Assembly: GCA_016235765.1 (NCBI GenBank) | Contig: JACRIZ010000009.1 | Coordinates: 1-64,000, forward strand | Length of the DNA: 64,000 bases | Direction of reading: 5' to 3' | DNA from: Rhodocyclales bacterium | GTDB taxonomy: Bacteria > Pseudomonadota > Gammaproteobacteria > Burkholderiales > Rhodocyclaceae | Shown here: piece after piece, positions 9,114 to 59,102 of the stretch | Position numbering within the stretch: the stretch's first letter is position 1 | Layout of the letters: the number at the start of each line of letters is the position of its first letter | The notes under the pieces: model-generated | The model's input: the letters and a program-made list of their open reading frames with translations, nothing else | Told to the model about the DNA's origin: nothing | The model's database searches: none | Made by a program: the position numbers and the translations under genes

Positions 9114-10474
9114 GAACCGCCGGCCGCGCCGGTACGCTTGTCGACCTTGTCGCGCACCAGTTCGATATGGCTGCGCAGGGTGTAGAGCATGTCGGAGAAG
9201 GCGAGCGGCGTCGGCAGGTGGTGCACGTCGGTCTCGATGGCATCGAGCCGCGCCAGCCACTCTGCGCGCGTGTGGCGCGTCGCATCCTGCTCGACTTCCG
9301 CCTCGAGGAACTTGAGTTCGCCGTAGCGGCGATAGATGCGAGAGCGCACCCGCCAGCCGTAGAGCGTCGGCGCGAAGCGCAGGATGGGCACCAGCAGCGC
9401 CACGACCGGAATCAGCATGACGACAAGGCGGTCGACCAGCGTCGCGGCCCAGAACGGCAGGTAGCGCTGCAGCAAGGGCTTGCCGGACTTGTAGTAGCGC
9501 TCGGCCTCCTTCGAGAGCGGAAAGCCGACCGCGGTCGGCCGCGGAAAGTCGCCGGGCTTCTGGAACACGCCCGGCCCGCCGTGGGTCTCCGTCGCTGCCT
9601 GCATCAGCAGGTCGACCAGGGCAGGATGCGTGCCGTCGCGCACCAGCAGCGTCGCCGTCGAGGCCACCATGGTCACGTCCGTCGGCGGCACGTCGCGGCC
9701 GATGTCGACCGAGCCGCGCGGCAGGACGATCTTCGACAGGTATGGCAGGCGCCGCGAGTAAGCCTCGGCATGGGTCAGGCTCATCAGGCGGATGCCCTTG
9801 GTGAACAGCAGCGACCACACGGCCGCCGACTGCGTCGGCCCGACCACGAAGGCGGCGTCGATTTCGCCCTTGGCGAACTTCTCGATCAGGGCCAGGCCGC
9901 CGGTATCCAGCAACCTGGCATTGCCGGCATCGATGCCGTTGGCGTGCAGCAGTTCGAGCGCCAGGTGCCGCGAGCCGCTGCCCGGCCCGCCGATGGCGAT
10001 ACGGCGGTGCTTGAGCTGCCGAATGCGATCGAGATTGCGCTCGGGCGGCGCGATCTCGTCGCGATAAAACACCCAGAGCGGCTCATAGTAGAAGGCGCCC
10101 AGCGAAACCAGTTCGTCATCCTCCTGCGGCTCGGCGGTGCCCAACTGGAAGAACGCGGCATCGATGTCCTGGTCATAGTCGCGCAGGCGCGCGACGTTGT
10201 CCAGCGAACCCCCCGAAGGCATTTCAACCACCTTGACGTCGTAGCGCCCGAGCACGTCGGCGTAAAGCGCCGCGAAGCGCTGGTAGGCGCCGCCGTCGCC
10301 GCCGCTGCTGAGCACCAGCGTATCGGGCGGCGCCGGCTGGATGAACCGCGACGCCCCCCAAAAGCCGCCGATCAGGATCAACAACAGCGGCACCGCGACG
10401 ATCAGCACGTCGCGCAGCGAATACTCGCTGAGCGGGCGGAGCTTGCGGCGCGGACGCGAAGTCGGATCGGCCAT
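9110..10474 (-). CDS. TAXI-family TRAP transporter solute receptor, membrane-anchored
   Basis: A 454-residue protein. An N-terminal hydrophobic anchor (about residues 23-42) is followed by a periplasmic-binding domain beginning LVLSSGGDGGAYQRFAALYA, the TAXI/NMT1-like signature, to about residue 330. A second membrane segment (LVVMLIPVVALLVPILRF) and a basic, probably cytoplasmic helical tail end it. Classical TAXI receptors are freely periplasmic and pair with a DctM permease; neither holds here. I chose MADPTSRP (10474). The ligand is unknown. Confidence 0.8.
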   Translation of the reverse strand: MADPTSRPRRKLRPLSEYSLRDVLIVAVPLLLILIGGFWGASRFIQPAPPDTLVLSSGGDGGAYQRFAALYADVLGRYDVKVVEMPSGGSLDNVARLRDYDQDIDAAFFQLGTAEPQEDDELVSLGAFYYEPLWVFYRDEIAPPERNLDRIRQLKHRRIAIGGPGSGSRHLALELLHANGIDAGNARLLDTGGLALIEKFAKGEIDAAFVVGPTQSAAVWSLLFTKGIRLMSLTHAEAYSRRLPYLSKIVLPRGSVDIGRDVPPTDVTMVASTATLLVRDGTHPALVDLLMQAATETHGGPGVFQKPGDFPRPTAVGFPLSKEAERYYKSGKPLLQRYLPFWAATLVDRLVVMLIPVVALLVPILRFAPTLYGWRVRSRIYRRYGELKFLEAEVEQDATRHTRAEWLARLDAIETDVHHLPTPLAFSDMLYTLRSHIELVRDKVDKRTGAAGGS

Positions 10475-10587
10475 GGCAGGGAGCGGTCGGGAGCCAGACC
10501 ATCTTAACTCGGTTCGTTTCTGACACGGGTGTTGGGTTCTGACGACAGTCTCGAGAGTCCCCACAAAGTACTAGCATGACCCTACCA

Positions 10588-10672
10588 AAAAAGGGCAAAC
10601 CCGCCGAAAGTCGGGGGCGCAAAGCTACGGGGCTAACGAGAGGAATATCTCCAAGCCAGCCGGGCCGCCGGA
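10588..10672 (+). ncRNA. GEMM-I (cyclic di-GMP-I type) riboswitch
   Basis: The leader contains GGGCAAACC (10593-10601), a CGAAAG tetraloop hairpin (10604-10609), the GGCGCAAAGC block near 10616-10624, a second helix closed by GGCT/AGCC with an inner GAGA/TCTC stem (10631-10656), and the terminal CAGCCGGGC. This is the order of the GEMM-I consensus. The class senses c-di-GMP, with a subset (GEMM-Ib) sensing 3',3'-cGAMP; specificity needs a structural alignment. The first likely start codon lies 78 bp downstream (10750). No separate intrinsic terminator is obvious, so control may be at translation or through Rho. Confidence 0.88.
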
Positions 10673-10749
10673 ATGCCGCCATGGCGTTTCGTGAACGGTG
10701 CCAAGCTTCGCATCCCGGTTTCCGCAGGCCGACCCGCCAGGAGATCGCG

Positions 10750-11400
10750 ATGACGAGACCGGGAAACCAGATGCTGACCGCCGCCGTGGCGCTCCTGGCA
10801 CTGGCGAGCCCGGTGGCGCATGGCCTGGACGCAAGCCGCGCAACGCGCTACGCCTCGGTCGATCCTTCCGCCTTTCGGCAGTACGCGGCACCCGCCGCCA
10901 AGTCGGCGACAGCTTCCAACAGCAAGGCCAAAGCGCAGAAGAAGCCCAAGCCGGGCAAGACCAAGATCCTGGCCGGCCTGCACAATTTCCGTACTCCGGC
11001 GCAGCGTGCGCTGGAACGCATCAATCGTCCGCACGGCAGTTGCCAACCGGCCGAGCGCGCCTGCCCGGCGGTATTCCGGAACAACCTCGGTGGCGAGAAC
11101 CATGCACTGCGGAACGAAATGTCCCGAACGGGGCACGACTCCGTGCCGCCGTCGAGCGAGGCGAATGCCGAACGCCTGGACGCGGATGCCCCGGCGACGA
11201 ACCAGCCCGGCCTGACCCGCCCCTACCAGGAGGTGCCCGGCCTGGTGCCCGGACGCGAGTCGAGCTACAAGCTGTCCCTCAACCTGCCGCTCGGCAGGTT
11301 TGAAAACGTGATGCTGCAGGCGAACGTGCGCAAGAACGCGTTCAATACGGTGAACAGCAGCGACTCGACCCTGCGCGCAGACTGGTCAGTGCGCTTCTGA
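10750..11400 (+). CDS. Riboswitch-controlled exported protein of unknown function
   Basis: 216 residues beginning MTRPGNQMLTAAVALLALAS with cleavage likely near AHG. A lysine/alanine-rich low-complexity stretch (about 45-75) and a pair of cysteines (SCQPAERACP) follow. The end is an alternating polar/hydrophobic segment closing in W-S-V-R-F, like the last strand of an outer-membrane beta structure. AGGAG sits 6 nt before the ATG at 10750. In-frame ATGs at 10576 and 10681 lie before or within the leader and give no signal peptide. I recognise no family. The nine-haem cytochrome starts 102 bp downstream. Confidence 0.7.
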   Translation: MTRPGNQMLTAAVALLALASPVAHGLDASRATRYASVDPSAFRQYAAPAAKSATASNSKAKAQKKPKPGKTKILAGLHNFRTPAQRALERINRPHGSCQPAERACPAVFRNNLGGENHALRNEMSRTGHDSVPPSSEANAERLDADAPATNQPGLTRPYQEVPGLVPGRESSYKLSLNLPLGRFENVMLQANVRKNAFNTVNSSDSTLRADWSVRF

Positions 11401-11502
11401 GCCCGGCGCGGACCGACTGTCGGGCGAGCACGACGTAACGTTCGCTTAAGACTCGGGGAACACGATGGCGGCGCCGCCCACACGAAGCAAAGGAGACATG
11501 CC

Positions 11503-13338
11503 ATGACCAAAGTCGCCCGCTTGTCTGCGATCGCCGCACTTGCCATCACGTTCGGCTATGGCTGTGGGGGGGGCGGCTCCGACAGCTCGGGATCGAGCCA
11601 GGGCGGCAGCGCCGTCGTCGCTGCCGCGCGCACCAGTTCGTCAGGGTCCTCGACGACTACGGCCAGCTACGCCCTGACGGCGTGGAACGACCTCGGCATG
11701 CACTGCGTAGACGGCACCGACTACTCGATCATGTCGATCCTGCCGCCCTACAACAACCTGCACGCGCAACTGGTCAACAAGAGCACCGGCAAGCAGGTCA
11801 CCAGCGGCGTCACCATCACCTACGCATCGACCGCCGACCTCGACGGCTCGATCAATACGAGCAGTTCCGGCAAGACCAACTTCTGGCAGTACGTGGCCGC
11901 GCTGTTCGGCGTCCGGCCGGCCGACGACGTCGGCCTGACCGGCAACCCGATGGCGACACGGACGCCCGCGCCGATGCACTTCAACGCCACCTGGGGCTGG
12001 TTTGAGGCTGAGGGTATCCCGATCACGCCCTACGACGATGCCGGCAACAAGAATTTCTACCCGATGGTGAACGTCGTGGCCAAGGACACGCGCGGCCGGG
12101 TGCTGGCAACGGCGAAGGCCGTGCTGCCGGTCTCCGACGAGATGACCTGCCAGGCCTGCCACATCTCGCGTGCCAGCGGCAGCGCCGCGGAGATGGCGGC
12201 CAAGCCGCCGGTCTCCGGCTGGGCGTTCGACAACGATGCGCAGAAGGACTGGAAGAAGAACGTCCTGCGCATCCACGACGACAAGCAGAAGAACAATGGC
12301 AGCTTCAGTCAGGCGCTGGCCACGCTGGGCTACGACCCGGCCGGCCTTGCCGCCACCGCCGCCGCCGGCCGGCCGATCCTGTGCGCCGCCTGCCACGCCT
12401 CCAATGCGCTGCCCGGCACCGGGCTGGCCGGCATCTCGCCGCTGACCGCGGCGCAGCACCGCAGCCACGGCCAGGTAGTCGACCCGGCGCAGAACCTCAA
12501 GCTGGACGACATCGCCAATCGCAGTGCCTGCTACATGTGCCACCCGGGCTCGGTCACCAAGTGTCTGCGCGGCGCGATGGGCAATGCGGTGGATGCGCAA
12601 GGCAACGCCACGATGGGCTGCCAGAGCTGCCACGGCCAGATGGGCGACGTCGGCGCCAGCACGCGCGTCGGCTGGCTCGACCAGCCGAACTGCCAGACCT
12701 GCCACTACGACGGCAAGCGCGAAACCTCGGCCATCGATCCCGCCACCGGCAAGCTGCGCGTGGTGGCCGATGCGCGCTTCGCGACGACGCCCAACGTGCC
12801 AGCCAGCGGCTTCTCGCTGTTCCGCTTCAGCACCGGCCACGGCAAGCTGCAATGCGAGGCCTGCCATGGCGCAACGCATGCGGAGTATCCGAGTTCGCAC
12901 GAGAACGACAATGTCCTGAGTGTGTCATTGCAGGGCTATCGCGGCACCGTCAAGGAATGCAGCGCCTGCCACGCCACGGTGCCGAATACCGCCAATGGCG
13001 GCCCGCACGGCATGCATTCGACGACGGCGAAGTGGATCGACGACCATCACGACGAGGCGGAGCACAACCGGCCGAGCTGCACCTACTGCCACGGCGCCGA
13101 CTTCAAGGGCACCTACCTGTCCGAGGTCCGCAAGACCAAGTCGTTCTCGACCGAGAATGGCAGCGTGACTCTGGTTGCCGGCCAGCGGGTCGGCTGCTAC
13201 GAGTGCCACAACGGCCCGGACGGCGAAGGGCGCGGCGGCTCGCTGCCGCCGAACATGAATCCAGCCTACACGGGAACGGCGGGCGCCGCGCTGCTGCAGG
13301 CGGATCAGGCCATCCTCAAGTGGCTGGCCGGAAAGTAA
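11503..13338 (+). CDS. Multihaem cytochrome c, nine CXXCH motifs, predicted exported lipoprotein
   Basis: 611 residues. The N-terminus has a hydrophobic stretch ending FGYGCGGGGSD, a weak lipobox, then a Ser/Thr-rich linker. A beta-rich region containing YALTAWNDLGMHC is followed by nine haem-binding motifs: CQACH, CAACH, CYMCH, CQSCH, CQTCH, CEACH, CSACH, CTYCH, CYECH. Such cytochromes move electrons at or beyond the outer membrane. GGAG lies 8 nt upstream of the ATG. It follows a GEMM-I controlled gene with no clear terminator between, so it may share that control. No porin partner is visible. Confidence 0.9.
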   Translation: MTKVARLSAIAALAITFGYGCGGGGSDSSGSSQGGSAVVAAARTSSSGSSTTTASYALTAWNDLGMHCVDGTDYSIMSILPPYNNLHAQLVNKSTGKQVTSGVTITYASTADLDGSINTSSSGKTNFWQYVAALFGVRPADDVGLTGNPMATRTPAPMHFNATWGWFEAEGIPITPYDDAGNKNFYPMVNVVAKDTRGRVLATAKAVLPVSDEMTCQACHISRASGSAAEMAAKPPVSGWAFDNDAQKDWKKNVLRIHDDKQKNNGSFSQALATLGYDPAGLAATAAAGRPILCAACHASNALPGTGLAGISPLTAAQHRSHGQVVDPAQNLKLDDIANRSACYMCHPGSVTKCLRGAMGNAVDAQGNATMGCQSCHGQMGDVGASTRVGWLDQPNCQTCHYDGKRETSAIDPATGKLRVVADARFATTPNVPASGFSLFRFSTGHGKLQCEACHGATHAEYPSSHENDNVLSVSLQGYRGTVKECSACHATVPNTANGGPHGMHSTTAKWIDDHHDEAEHNRPSCTYCHGADFKGTYLSEVRKTKSFSTENGSVTLVAGQRVGCYECHNGPDGEGRGGSLPPNMNPAYTGTAGAALLQADQAILKWLAGK

Positions 13339-13341
13339 GCC

Positions 13342-13797
13342 CTAGAACGGAATATCGTCCTCGAAATCGTTGAAGCCGCCGCCCGACGAGGCGGCGGGCT
13401 TCGACGGCGCCGGCCGGCTGCCGCCGCCGCTGTTTTCGCGCGGCGCGGCATCGCCCATGCCTTCGCGGCGGCCGAGCATCTGCATCTCGTTGGCTTCGAT
13501 CTCGGTGGTGTAGCGTTCCTGGCCTTCCTTGTCCGTCCACTTGCGGGTGCGGATGCGGCCCTCGAGATAGACCTGCGAGCCCTTCTTCAGGTATTGCCCG
13601 GCGATCTCGGCCAGCTTGCGGTAGAAGACCACCCGGTGCCACTCGGTGATTTCCTTCTTTTCGCCGGACTGCTTGTCTTTCCAGCTCTCGGTGGTGGCCA
13701 CGCGGATGTTGCACACCGCATCGCCGTTGGGCATGTAGCGCGTCTCCGGGTCCGCACCGAGGTTGCCTACCAGGATCACCTTATTTACCGAAGCCAT
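13342..13797 (-). CDS. ssb: Single-stranded DNA-binding protein
   Basis: The 151-residue protein starts [25 protein letters not shown] with an OB-fold to about residue 112. A Gly/Pro/Ser-rich linker and the acidic tip F-E-D-D-I-P-F follow, the partner-binding tail of SSB. An upstream in-frame ATG at 13824 gives a non-conserved extension, so I chose 13797. It is convergent with the cytochrome gene, 3 bp apart. In related genomes ssb usually adjoins the MFS gene that here lies 1.2 kb away. Confidence 0.96.
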
Positions 13798-19489: not shown

Positions 19490-21675
19490 GCCACCTTGGC
19501 CGGCGACCGGAACAGCAACTCGGCTTCGGAGGCCGGCAGGGGCACCGAAAAGTAGTTGCCCTGAAAGCGGGTGCAGCCGTAGCTGAGCAGGGTTTGCACC
19601 TGCGCGCTGCTTTCCACGCCTTCGGCGAGCGTTTCCAGGTTCAGCGCCCGCGCCAGACTGACGATCGCCGAGACGATCGCCGCGTCGCCCCAGTCCTCGC
19701 CCAGGTCGCTGACGAAGCTGCGGTCTATTTTCAGGCGATGCACCGGGAAGCGCTTCAGGTGGTTCAGGCTCGAATAGCCGATGCCGAAATCGTCGATGGC
19801 CAGGCGCACGCCCATGGCCGAAAGTTCGCGCAGGGTATCGAGCGCCTCGTCTACATCGTGCATGAGCGAGGTTTCGGTGATCTCCAGCTCCAGCAGGCGG
19901 GCCGGCTGGCCGGTGTCTTCGAGCAGGCAGCGCACCAGTTCGACCAGGCCCCGCTGCCGGAACTGGCGCGGCGAGAGGTTCACCGATACGGGCAATTGCG
20001 GATAGCCGGCTTCCTGCCAAAGCCGGTTTTGCCTTAGCGCCTCGCCTAGCACCCATTCGCCGAGCGGCAGGATCAAGCCGGTCTCCTCTGCCACCGGCAC
20101 GAATTCGGCGGGCGGCATCAGGCCCGATTCGGGATGCTGCCAGCGCACCAGCGCCTCGAAGCCGCAGACGGCCGTTTCGGTGATGCGCAGTTGCGGCTGG
20201 TAGTGGAGCACCAGTTCGCCCACGTCCAGCGCGTGGCGCAACTGGTGCTCGAGACGAAAGAAGCGCGTCGCCTCCTCGTTCATGCGTGGCGCGAAGAACT
20301 GGAAATTGTTCCGGCCGCGCGCCTTGGCGTGGTACATCGCCGTGTCGGCGTTCTTCATGAGCTGCAGCGCTTCGAGGCCGTCGTCCGGAAAGATGCTGAT
20401 GCCGATCGAAGGCGTCACGCACAACTCGTGGCCGACAGCATTGATTGGCATTGCCAGCGTCTGGACGATCTTTTCCGCCACCAGCACCGCGTCGTCGGGT
20501 CCGGCCAGCTCGCGCAGGATGACGATGAACTCGTCGCCACCCAGGCGCGACACGGTATCGACGGCGCGCACGGCAGCTTCGATGCGGCCGGCGACCTGCT
20601 TGAGCAGTTCGTCACCGACGGGATGGCCAAGCGTGTCGTTGATGCTCTTGAAGCGGTCGAGGTCGAGGAACATCACGCCGACCCGATGGTTATCCCGCAG
20701 CGCCTGCGCCAGCGCCTGCTCCAGGCGGTCGTGCAGCAGCGTGCGATTGGGCAGCCCGGTCAGGGCATCGTGGTGTGCCACGTGCCAGATGCGCTGCTCG
20801 GCCTGGACGCGCTCGAAGATTTCCTTCTGCAACTGCTGATTGGTGACCGTCAGTTCGTTGGTGCGCTCGAGCACCCGCTGCTCCAGTTCATCCTTGGCGC
20901 GCCGCAGTGCCTCTTCGGCCTCGCGCCGTTGCGTCACGTCCTCGAAGATCCAGACGACGTCGAAGCGTTCGCCGGCATGCGGCGCGCGATGGCCCGTAAT
21001 GCGGACCCAGAAGCAGCGGCCGTCCTTGCGCCTGGCGCCGCACTCGGTCGAAAACACCTCGCCGCGCCGGATCGGGTCGCGCGCGCGATTGCCGAGATCG
21101 TCGAACGACTCCTGGCTGGGATGGAGTTGCCGGGTCGACAGGCCGAGCATCTCGCCAGTGCCGTAGCCGAAGATCTCCTCCAGCTTGCGATTGCAGCGCA
21201 CGACCATCCGGTCTTCGACGTACATGATGCCGACCGCCGCGTTGTCGAAGATCATCTGGTGCTCGGCCAGCGCGTTGCGCACCAACTGCTCGGTCTGGTA
21301 GTCGGCGGTGACGTCCTCCATGATCCAGATCGTGCCGGCCTGCGGACGCAGCGGATTGACCGCCTTGGCCGACAGGCGGCAGCGGAAGCAACTGCCGTCC
21401 TTGCGGACCATGTCCAGCTCGGCGCGGAAGGGCTGGCCGGCGGCCAGCGCGGGACCGGCCTCGCGACCTACCGATTCGTAGATTTCGTCCGAAGGGTAGA
21501 GCGTGCGGCCGGTCAGGCCGACCATCTCCTCGGCCGTATAGCCGAACATCTGCGCGCAAAGCGGGTTGGCGCGCACCAGATGCCGGTTTTTCGAGAACAG
21601 GATGCCGACGGTCGCGTTCTCGAGGATCGCCCGCAACTCCAGCAACGTCGAGTTGCCTTCCATGCCGAGGTTCAT
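19486..21675 (-). CDS. PAS-PAS-GGDEF-EAL protein (c-di-GMP cyclase/phosphodiesterase)
   Basis: 729 residues, no membrane segment. Two PAS domains (about 10-125 and 136-250), a coiled coil (250-295), a GGDEF domain (297-465) and an EAL domain (475-725). The GGDEF motif is intact at 379-383 with an I-site RAVD at 370-373, so cyclase activity with product inhibition is possible. The EAL domain keeps EALVRW, SVNLSPRQF, LEITETS, AIDDFGIGYSS, LKIDRSF and LAEGVES, so phosphodiesterase activity is likely. The net direction cannot be read from sequence. A GEMM-I riboswitch at 10588 is a possible in-cell target. Confidence 0.95.
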   Translation of the reverse strand: MNLGMEGNSTLLELRAILENATVGILFSKNRHLVRANPLCAQMFGYTAEEMVGLTGRTLYPSDEIYESVGREAGPALAAGQPFRAELDMVRKDGSCFRCRLSAKAVNPLRPQAGTIWIMEDVTADYQTEQLVRNALAEHQMIFDNAAVGIMYVEDRMVVRCNRKLEEIFGYGTGEMLGLSTRQLHPSQESFDDLGNRARDPIRRGEVFSTECGARRKDGRCFWVRITGHRAPHAGERFDVVWIFEDVTQRREAEEALRRAKDELEQRVLERTNELTVTNQQLQKEIFERVQAEQRIWHVAHHDALTGLPNRTLLHDRLEQALAQALRDNHRVGVMFLDLDRFKSINDTLGHPVGDELLKQVAGRIEAAVRAVDTVSRLGGDEFIVILRELAGPDDAVLVAEKIVQTLAMPINAVGHELCVTPSIGISIFPDDGLEALQLMKNADTAMYHAKARGRNNFQFFAPRMNEEATRFFRLEHQLRHALDVGELVLHYQPQLRITETAVCGFEALVRWQHPESGLMPPAEFVPVAEETGLILPLGEWVLGEALRQNRLWQEAGYPQLPVSVNLSPRQFRQRGLVELVRCLLEDTGQPARLLELEITETSLMHDVDEALDTLRELSAMGVRLAIDDFGIGYSSLNHLKRFPVHRLKIDRSFVSDLGEDWGDAAIVSAIVSLARALNLETLAEGVESSAQVQTLLSYGCTRFQGNYFSVPLPASEAELLFRSPAKVA

Positions 21676-57614: not shown

Positions 57615-59102
57615 ATGAAGGGAAAGCCCGAGCAAATCCCTACGTTGAATGCATATAACTATCGTGATAGCTTGCGGCACTTGGCGCCGCTGCTGACGCA
57701 GCCGATCCCCCGTACCCAGACCATGATGCACTACCCACTCATCCGCGCTGCTTCGGGCCTGACGCGGCCACTCGGCATGCTCGTCGTGATCCTCGCGGGT
57801 ACGCTGCTGGCAGCCTATTTGACCAGTCTCGAGATGCTGTTCCGTCCACTTCCCGGCGGACCGGCAACCCATCCGCTGACCGCCGCGGCGCTGTTGCTGC
57901 TCGGCCTGCCCATGGCCTGCTGGCGACACCGCCATCGAAGCCGAATCGCCTTGCCGGCGGCGCTGGCCGCGCTGGCAATCGGCGCCCTGCGCCTGGCCGA
58001 CATCGCCCTCGACGCTCATCTGCTGGAGTACATCACGCCTTTCCGGGATTCGCTGGCCGCCCAGGCCGAGGCAGGCACGCCGGTCAAGATGGGATTGAAC
58101 ACCGCGCTCATGACGGTGCTGCTGGCGATGGCGCTGATTCTGGAGGGCCATCGACGCTATCTGCCCAGTCAGTTGTTCGCCTTCCTGGGGCTGGGCTTCC
58201 CGGCCGTGGCGGCAACCGGATACGCCTATGGTCTGGCCGATTTCCACGGCCAGATGGCACTCAGTACGGTCGCCATCGCCTTGCTGGTCGGTACCGGCAT
58301 CTTGAGCGCGGGCGCCCACCGCGGCGTCTTGAAGGCCATGCTCAGTCCGTGGCTGGGAGGCCGCATCGCGCGCGTGCAGGTCGTCCTCGCCTATCTGGTG
58401 CCATTCACCATCGGCTATTTGCTCGTGACCCTGGTCCAGGCAACCGCGAAGCAATTGTTCGGCCTGTTCGTCGTCATCGTCAGCGGCTTCATCGTCGTCC
58501 TGGTGGTTGTCTCGGCCATGTTCCAGGAGCATGTGGATCGTCGGCGGCGCGGCGCGGAAAGGCAACTCGCGGTCGCCGCGACGACAGACCCGTTGACCGA
58601 GACGGCCAACCGCCGTCTGCTGCTGCAGACAGCGATGCACGAAGTCGAGCGGGCCAAGCGGCAGGGCCAGCCCTTGTCGCTGCTGATGGTGGATATCGAC
58701 CGTTTCAAGGACTTGAACGATTGCTACGGGCACGCCGCCGGCGACATGGTTCTCAGTACCATAGCCCGGGCCATGCAGGCAACGCTGCGCAAGCAGGACC
58801 TGCTGGCGCGCTACGGCGGCGAGGAATTCGCCATTCTGCTGCCGGACACCCCGATTGCCGGCGCCGTACACCTCGCCGAAAAGATCCGGGCGCGGATCGA
58901 AGGCACGCTGTTTCCGGAAAATGTGGGCCGGGTAACGGTGTCGGTCGGCTGCAGCGACAACCAGAACGCGACGGATTTCCGGGAACTGCTCGTCGCCACC
59001 GACAAGGCGCTCTACGCAGCCAAGGCCCTGGGCCGCAATCGCGTCGAAACTTCCGCCGGCAGCGGCCCGCGGGACCTTGGCGCAATCGCGCAACCCGCCT
59101 GA
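57615..59102 (+). CDS. Membrane-bound diguanylate cyclase (GGDEF)
   Basis: 495 residues. Six to eight membrane segments (about 45-300) without a named sensor domain, then a GGDEF domain. The active site is GGEEF at 401-405, with I-site RKQD at 392-395, so synthesis of c-di-GMP with product inhibition is expected. The start is uncertain: 57615 or 57723 (MMHYPLIRAASG) both lead into the first helix. It sits alone between lutC and the lut dehydrogenase, converging on the latter with no gap. Confidence 0.88.
   Translation: MKGKPEQIPTLNAYNYRDSLRHLAPLLTQPIPRTQTMMHYPLIRAASGLTRPLGMLVVILAGTLLAAYLTSLEMLFRPLPGGPATHPLTAAALLLLGLPMACWRHRHRSRIALPAALAALAIGALRLADIALDAHLLEYITPFRDSLAAQAEAGTPVKMGLNTALMTVLLAMALILEGHRRYLPSQLFAFLGLGFPAVAATGYAYGLADFHGQMALSTVAIALLVGTGILSAGAHRGVLKAMLSPWLGGRIARVQVVLAYLVPFTIGYLLVTLVQATAKQLFGLFVVIVSGFIVVLVVVSAMFQEHVDRRRRGAERQLAVAATTDPLTETANRRLLLQTAMHEVERAKRQGQPLSLLMVDIDRFKDLNDCYGHAAGDMVLSTIARAMQATLRKQDLLARYGGEEFAILLPDTPIAGAVHLAEKIRARIEGTLFPENVGRVTVSVGCSDNQNATDFRELLVATDKALYAAKALGRNRVETSAGSGPRDLGAIAQPA

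Follow-up and report, generated by a model that had tools for sequence, protein, structure and literature searches.

A GEMM-I (c-di-GMP-I) riboswitch in a genome of the Rhodocyclales rather probably controls the translation of a protein of 216 amino acids that descends from an S8 protease, and the nine-haem cytochrome gene further downstream is then a later neighbour that is not conserved at the locus. The window, i.e., the whole stretch of DNA that was analysed, has a length of 64,000 nucleotides and belongs to an assembly of 3.16 Mb that is 87% complete and contains four GEMM-I aptamers. The main gain lies in the relationship found for the formerly "unknown" protein and in its conserved leader, rather than in the cytochrome.

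In the proposed scheme, the 216-residue protein would have kept the leader and signal peptide of a secreted S8 protease as well as its final beta-strands, while the catalytic domain was lost. When c-di-GMP is absent, the segment GCUUCGCAUCCCG would pair with the core of the aptamer, and in this core-paired state the overlapping anti-Shine-Dalgarno arm could not cover the Shine-Dalgarno sequence, so that the protein is made. When c-di-GMP is present, the aptamer would fold and release the anti-Shine-Dalgarno arm, which would then pair with GGAGAUCG and turn translation off. The gene of a widespread nine-haem cytochrome would have been placed behind this unit in the lineage of the window, where it may share the transcript.

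The Aptamer and Its Probable Ligand

When the sequence is searched by cmscan with the Rfam model RF01051 (c-di-GMP-I, gathering score 35), a full-length, untruncated aptamer is found at positions 10584-10672 of the + strand with 75.5 bits (E 5e-13). The first-pass annotation had recognized a GEMM-I aptamer here and had named a covariance score below threshold as the result that would speak against it; the score is instead far above the cut-off. The window also carries an RNase P RNA of class A at 1168-1535 on the - strand (299.7 bits).

The base at 10594, equivalent to G20 of Vc2 (alignment column 11), is a G, and G is invariant in this column across 35 aptamers of Rhodocyclaceae. The cGAMP-type GEMM-I riboswitches have an A at the G20 position, which acts as a selectivity factor and not as a hard filter (PMC6274999, PMC9262584), and the signature of Hypr GGDEF domains is a Ser that replaces Asp (PMC6456294). 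The genome of the window encodes 45 GGDEF domains, 30 of which were fetched; in 29 of these the residue at the Hypr position was legible (the other 16 of the 45 are unread). All 29 have the canonical Asp (GHxxGD), and no Hypr GGDEF is seen among them; neither of the two marks of the GEMM-Ib (cGAMP) class, A at the G20 position and a Hypr GGDEF domain, was found. From the G at the G20 position and the 29 canonical domains follows that c-di-GMP, and not cGAMP, is the likely ligand, in line with what had been supposed earlier. Two GGDEF domains inside the window (20305-20778, - strand, and 58578-59042, + strand) had been put forward as a possible source of this ligand: both are indeed present, but nothing sets them apart among the 45 of the genome.

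The Leader and Its Predicted Switch

The leader was compared in eight sequences from several genera, three of them in front of small-protein genes and five in front of S8 protease genes. The small-protein and the S8 leaders align over their whole length, including the Shine-Dalgarno sequence and the start. Directly after the aptamer there is a hairpin, AAUGCC-GCCAU-GGCGUU (10672-10688, + strand), that is conserved in the eight leaders; 95.8% of its cells are paired, and in three of its six pairs changes occur on both sides. A putative anti-aptamer element of 13 nucleotides, GCTTCGCATCCCG (10705-10717, + strand), is complementary to the aptamer core CGGGGGCGCAAAGC (10612-10625, + strand) and is its predicted partner in the ligand-free state. 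The motif GCTT[TC]GCATCC is conserved across the eight leaders and the several genera within a region that is otherwise variable, and the 13-nucleotide element as a whole reads GCTT[TC]GCATCCCG in most of them. The RNAalifold consensus of the eight leaders also picks the pairing of core and anti-aptamer element (columns 26-42 with 135-150). A point against the preferred explanation is that in the window itself this helix has one A.C mismatch and, taken alone, is no better than in shuffled sequences (p 0.655).

The candidate anti-Shine-Dalgarno arm CGGUUUCC (10716-10723, + strand) overlaps the 3' end of the anti-aptamer element, and its target, as read from the sequence, is the Shine-Dalgarno region GGAGATCG (10740-10747, + strand). 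All eight pairs can form in the window and in the congener G180, and five to seven of the eight in the other leaders. In the more distant S8 leaders the Shine-Dalgarno arm and its partner differ and yet still match, as in GTCTCCAGAGT/ACTCTGGAGAC, and in several S8 leaders the two strands of the Shine-Dalgarno helix have changed in step. A second point against the preferred explanation is that the window leader, when simply folded, gives no switch between the forced and the unforced aptamer, because the anti-Shine-Dalgarno arm is predicted to pair strongly with the start of the coding sequence in either case.

Taken together, the hairpin, the anti-aptamer element, and the anti-Shine-Dalgarno arm suggest a translational switch that is off when c-di-GMP is bound. 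The opposite sign, where binding of c-di-GMP favours a state with an exposed Shine-Dalgarno sequence, appears doubtful: other pairings can be read from the sequence, such as that of the post-P1 segment CCGGAAUG with CAUCCCGG (seven of eight pairs), and GEMM-I includes switches that act in either direction (PMC9262584), but the conserved element complementary to the core overlaps the anti-Shine-Dalgarno arm in a way that implies OFF logic, and for Vc2 translational control of the OFF type is described (PMC9262584). If control is translational, as the leader makes it look, its effect should fall chiefly on the gene that comes first, that of the small protein.

Transcription may start from a -10-like hexamer, TAGCAT, at 10572-10577 of the + strand, six nucleotides before the aptamer. 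In the congeners G114 and G180 the corresponding hexamers (TAGCAT/TACGAT) lie seven nucleotides before the aptamer with TTGACT 16 nucleotides upstream, and in comparison with these the -35 match of the window is poor.

The Nine-Haem Cytochrome as a Neighbour

The second gene (11503-13338, + strand) encodes a c-type cytochrome of 611 amino acids with nine CXXCH motifs, probably an outer-membrane lipoprotein, which matches the MtrC/MtrF domain II/IV (PF22113) and Cytochrome_C7 (PF14522). It starts 102 nucleotides downstream of the small-protein gene (10750-11400) and has its own Shine-Dalgarno sequence; both open reading frames, as first reported, are real. Beyond PF22113 and PF14522, Pfam and NCBIfam contain no close family, and among PDB sequences no solved structure close to the cytochrome was found. 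The family itself is widespread: nine CXXCH motifs together with the LGMHC segment, by which its members are recognized, are present in the window protein and in all 79 relatives from named genomes. In one congener (G204), matches to the cytochrome occur in two pieces in different frames (L262 and L263), one of which has an in-frame stop inside the match. Elsewhere (L113), a leader of the same class precedes a cytochrome c with two CXXCH motifs.

In the first-pass annotation, the two genes were read as a pair that could form an extracellular electron-transfer module switched by c-di-GMP, multihaem cytochromes being known targets of GEMM-I riboswitches. The last part of this stands also for the nine-haem family, since GEMM-I is linked to three of the 79 relatives in the DNA examined: two in Zoogloeaceae MAGs, with the aptamer directly before the gene, and one in a Thiobacillus MAG. 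The pair as a unit is not conserved, since G114 and G180 carry the small protein with no cytochrome gene between it and ssb; G114 has the cytochrome on a different contig, and a search of G180 did not find it. When the relatives are compared with the window, the match is confined to the cytochrome itself and the flanks do not match. As judged from sequence comparison, the cytochrome is neither the ancestral nor a conserved partner of the unit of riboswitch and small protein, and conservation does not appear to support a functional pairing of the two proteins.

An operon is nevertheless possible, where one transcript carries both genes and the small protein aids the cytochrome at the cell surface, although we regard it as unlikely that this is how the locus functions. 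The gap between the genes is short, and a consensus scan of 10400-13400 gives no sigma-70-like promoter and, on the + strand, no terminator-like site. In particular, no separate strong promoter was seen between 11401 and 11502, where one had been named in advance as evidence against a shared transcript. There is also the direct acquisition of GEMM-I by the nine-haem family in the three MAGs, and there are the riboswitch-linked cytochromes of Geobacter, which use cGAMP (PMC6456294). Against an operon with a common function speak the two congeners where the small protein occurs on its own, the 76 of 79 relatives that have no GEMM-I in the DNA examined, the leader, which looks translational and hence local to the first gene, and the MtrB/PioB porin (PF11854), the mark of an MtrCAB-type conduit, which was not found in the 87% complete genome. 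The electron-transfer module proposed earlier is in this sense possible, with both genes present, while the lack of conservation of the pair, the leader that looks local to the first gene, and the porin that was not found count against it. It is possible that cytochrome and small protein share a transcript in the window, and a shared promoter could still bring the cytochrome under GEMM-I control, which is a reservation to be held against our preferred explanation.

The Small Protein and Its Kinship with S8 Proteases

The first gene (10750-11400, + strand) encodes a 216-residue exported protein with a hydrophobic segment at its N-terminus. It has no match in Pfam (E <= 0.01), only one in NCBIfam, a hit of E 0.29 that falls far short of its cut-off, and no close match among PDB sequences. 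The congener G114 encodes a full-length relative that is 30-32% identical, and a profile of these two proteins finds a third member in the congener G180. Both orthologues (L009 and L211) stand behind GEMM-I at the same locus as in the window: all three genes have GEMM-I upstream and ssb adjoining, and wherever the contig extends far enough, a gene for a TAXI-type protein flanks them opposite ssb. These three are the known members, all from one genus, a narrow distribution that weakens the preferred explanation. Two further candidates were rejected: a 253-residue frame in G172 is an S8 gene truncated by the contig end, and the ssb-TAXI junction in G066 (L125), considered as an empty site, lies at a contig end with coding sequence removed. 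At this junction, ssb is seemingly fused to the TAXI gene at the contig start, by assembly artefact or by deletion.

The protein had been described as belonging to no known family. It is instead, by leader and by C-terminal homology, a putative miniaturised relative of S8 proteases under GEMM-I control. Its last 65 residues (152-216, encoded at 11203-11397, + strand) match, by profile, the ends of S8 proteins on the C-terminal side, in 12 genomes from other genera and with E values between 6e-11 and 3e-4 per genome, and when a full S8 protein is used as query in the reverse search, the small protein of G114 is found. The S8 proteins concerned have about 760-840 residues, and GEMM-I precedes the protease gene at each of the 11 complete S8 loci that were found. 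The small protein combines the two features by which this riboswitch-controlled lineage can be recognized, the GEMM-I leader class and the C-terminal block. The catalytic subtilase domain (Peptidase_S8) is not there, as neither the 216-residue protein nor its two orthologues have any Pfam match. The middle part of about 90 residues matches nothing, a weakness of the preferred explanation, because the argument for an internal deletion has to be drawn from the protein's two ends. The most economical view is that the protease was reduced to the small protein, and not the reverse, given that S8 forms are spread over many genera and the small form is confined to one; a search of six genomes of this genus found no full-length S8 sister of the matching type.

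The AF2 model from the single sequence is mostly disordered (mean pLDDT 45.8), with three predicted beta-strands at residues 171-181, 184-196, and 207-215 (pLDDT about 53-72). To call these the end of an outer-membrane barrel is a guess, because no Pfam autotransporter domain was found in the full S8 proteins.

Between the window and G180, dN/dS is 0.17 for the C-terminal part (dN 0.17, dS 1.01) and 0.51 for the N-terminal part (dN 0.55, dS 1.07), and from the low C-terminal value the gene appears to be under purifying selection. That it should be a decaying, functionless protease remnant, a pseudogene in progress kept open by GC-rich chance, is the least probable of the alternatives: the N-terminal two thirds evolve fast, three other congeners (G066, G150, and G204) have no match, and the -35 box of the window is poorer than those of its congeners, but the frame is open in three species at 32-52% identity, its C-terminal part is constrained, and leader and Shine-Dalgarno sequence are preserved.

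Secreted Proteases as Targets of GEMM-I

The first genes behind GEMM-I in Rhodocyclaceae were surveyed at 55 loci, a set partly chosen for S8 loci, so that the shares are indicative: S8 proteases account for 11, M12B-like peptidases for three, DUF1631 genes for 11, and HDOD genes for four. From the 14 of 55 that are S8 or M12B-like peptidases follows that secreted proteases are a leading GEMM-I target in this family, and the c-di-GMP riboswitches of Rhodocyclaceae are thereby linked to secreted proteases; no paper on GEMM-I with S8 proteases in Rhodocyclaceae was found. It fits that a GEMM-I OFF switch would release proteases when c-di-GMP falls. The M12B reprolysin-like type is seen behind GEMM-I in one congener (G066, L068). 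Elsewhere in the genome of the window, GEMM-I precedes a DUF1631 gene (L005), a gene for outer-membrane secretion of the ShlB/FhaC type with a leader of the same class (L006), and, with weak score (42.9 bits) and divergent binding site, a gene whose product weakly matches PEP-CTERM (L007).

The data suggest that one such protease gene was cut down, without losing its riboswitch, until it encoded a small exported protein that is conserved; if so, this would be a new class of small riboswitch-controlled protein, perhaps located at the surface or in the periplasm. It is conceivable, at rather long odds, that beyond this reduction to signal peptide and terminal beta-strands the cytochrome was added to the transcript, in which case c-di-GMP now governs an electron carrier. 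A riboswitch can come to have a cytochrome gene behind it that it did not originally control, and caution is called for when targets are named by gene order alone.

Comparison with Known Systems

The cytochrome has PF22113 and PF14522 in common with the MtrC/MtrF-like and Cytochrome_C7 cytochromes, and differs from these by its nine haems, with no solved structure close in sequence and no MtrB partner found. With the GEMM-Ib (cGAMP) riboswitches of Geobacter (pgcA, omcST, omcAHG) the locus shares a GEMM-I aptamer before a set of genes that includes a multihaem cytochrome. In contrast to these, the aptamer of the window has G and not A at the selectivity position, Hypr GGDEF domains were not seen, and the cytochrome gene comes second and is no constant part of the locus. 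Set beside the S8 subtilases (PF00082) of Rhodocyclaceae with a long C-terminal region, such as a protein of 762 residues (L063), the small protein is without the catalytic domain and the greater part of that region, while leader, Shine-Dalgarno sequence, and the last 65 residues are alike. The closest likeness in the RNA is to the Vc2-type GEMM-I riboswitch of Vibrio cholerae (RF01051), which is similar in sequence and structure of the aptamer, in the G at the G20 position, and in its probable translational control. A literature search found no description of an expression platform of the window type, which differs from Vc2 by a covarying hairpin after the aptamer and by the GCUUUGCAUCCCG element that is common to one class of genes.
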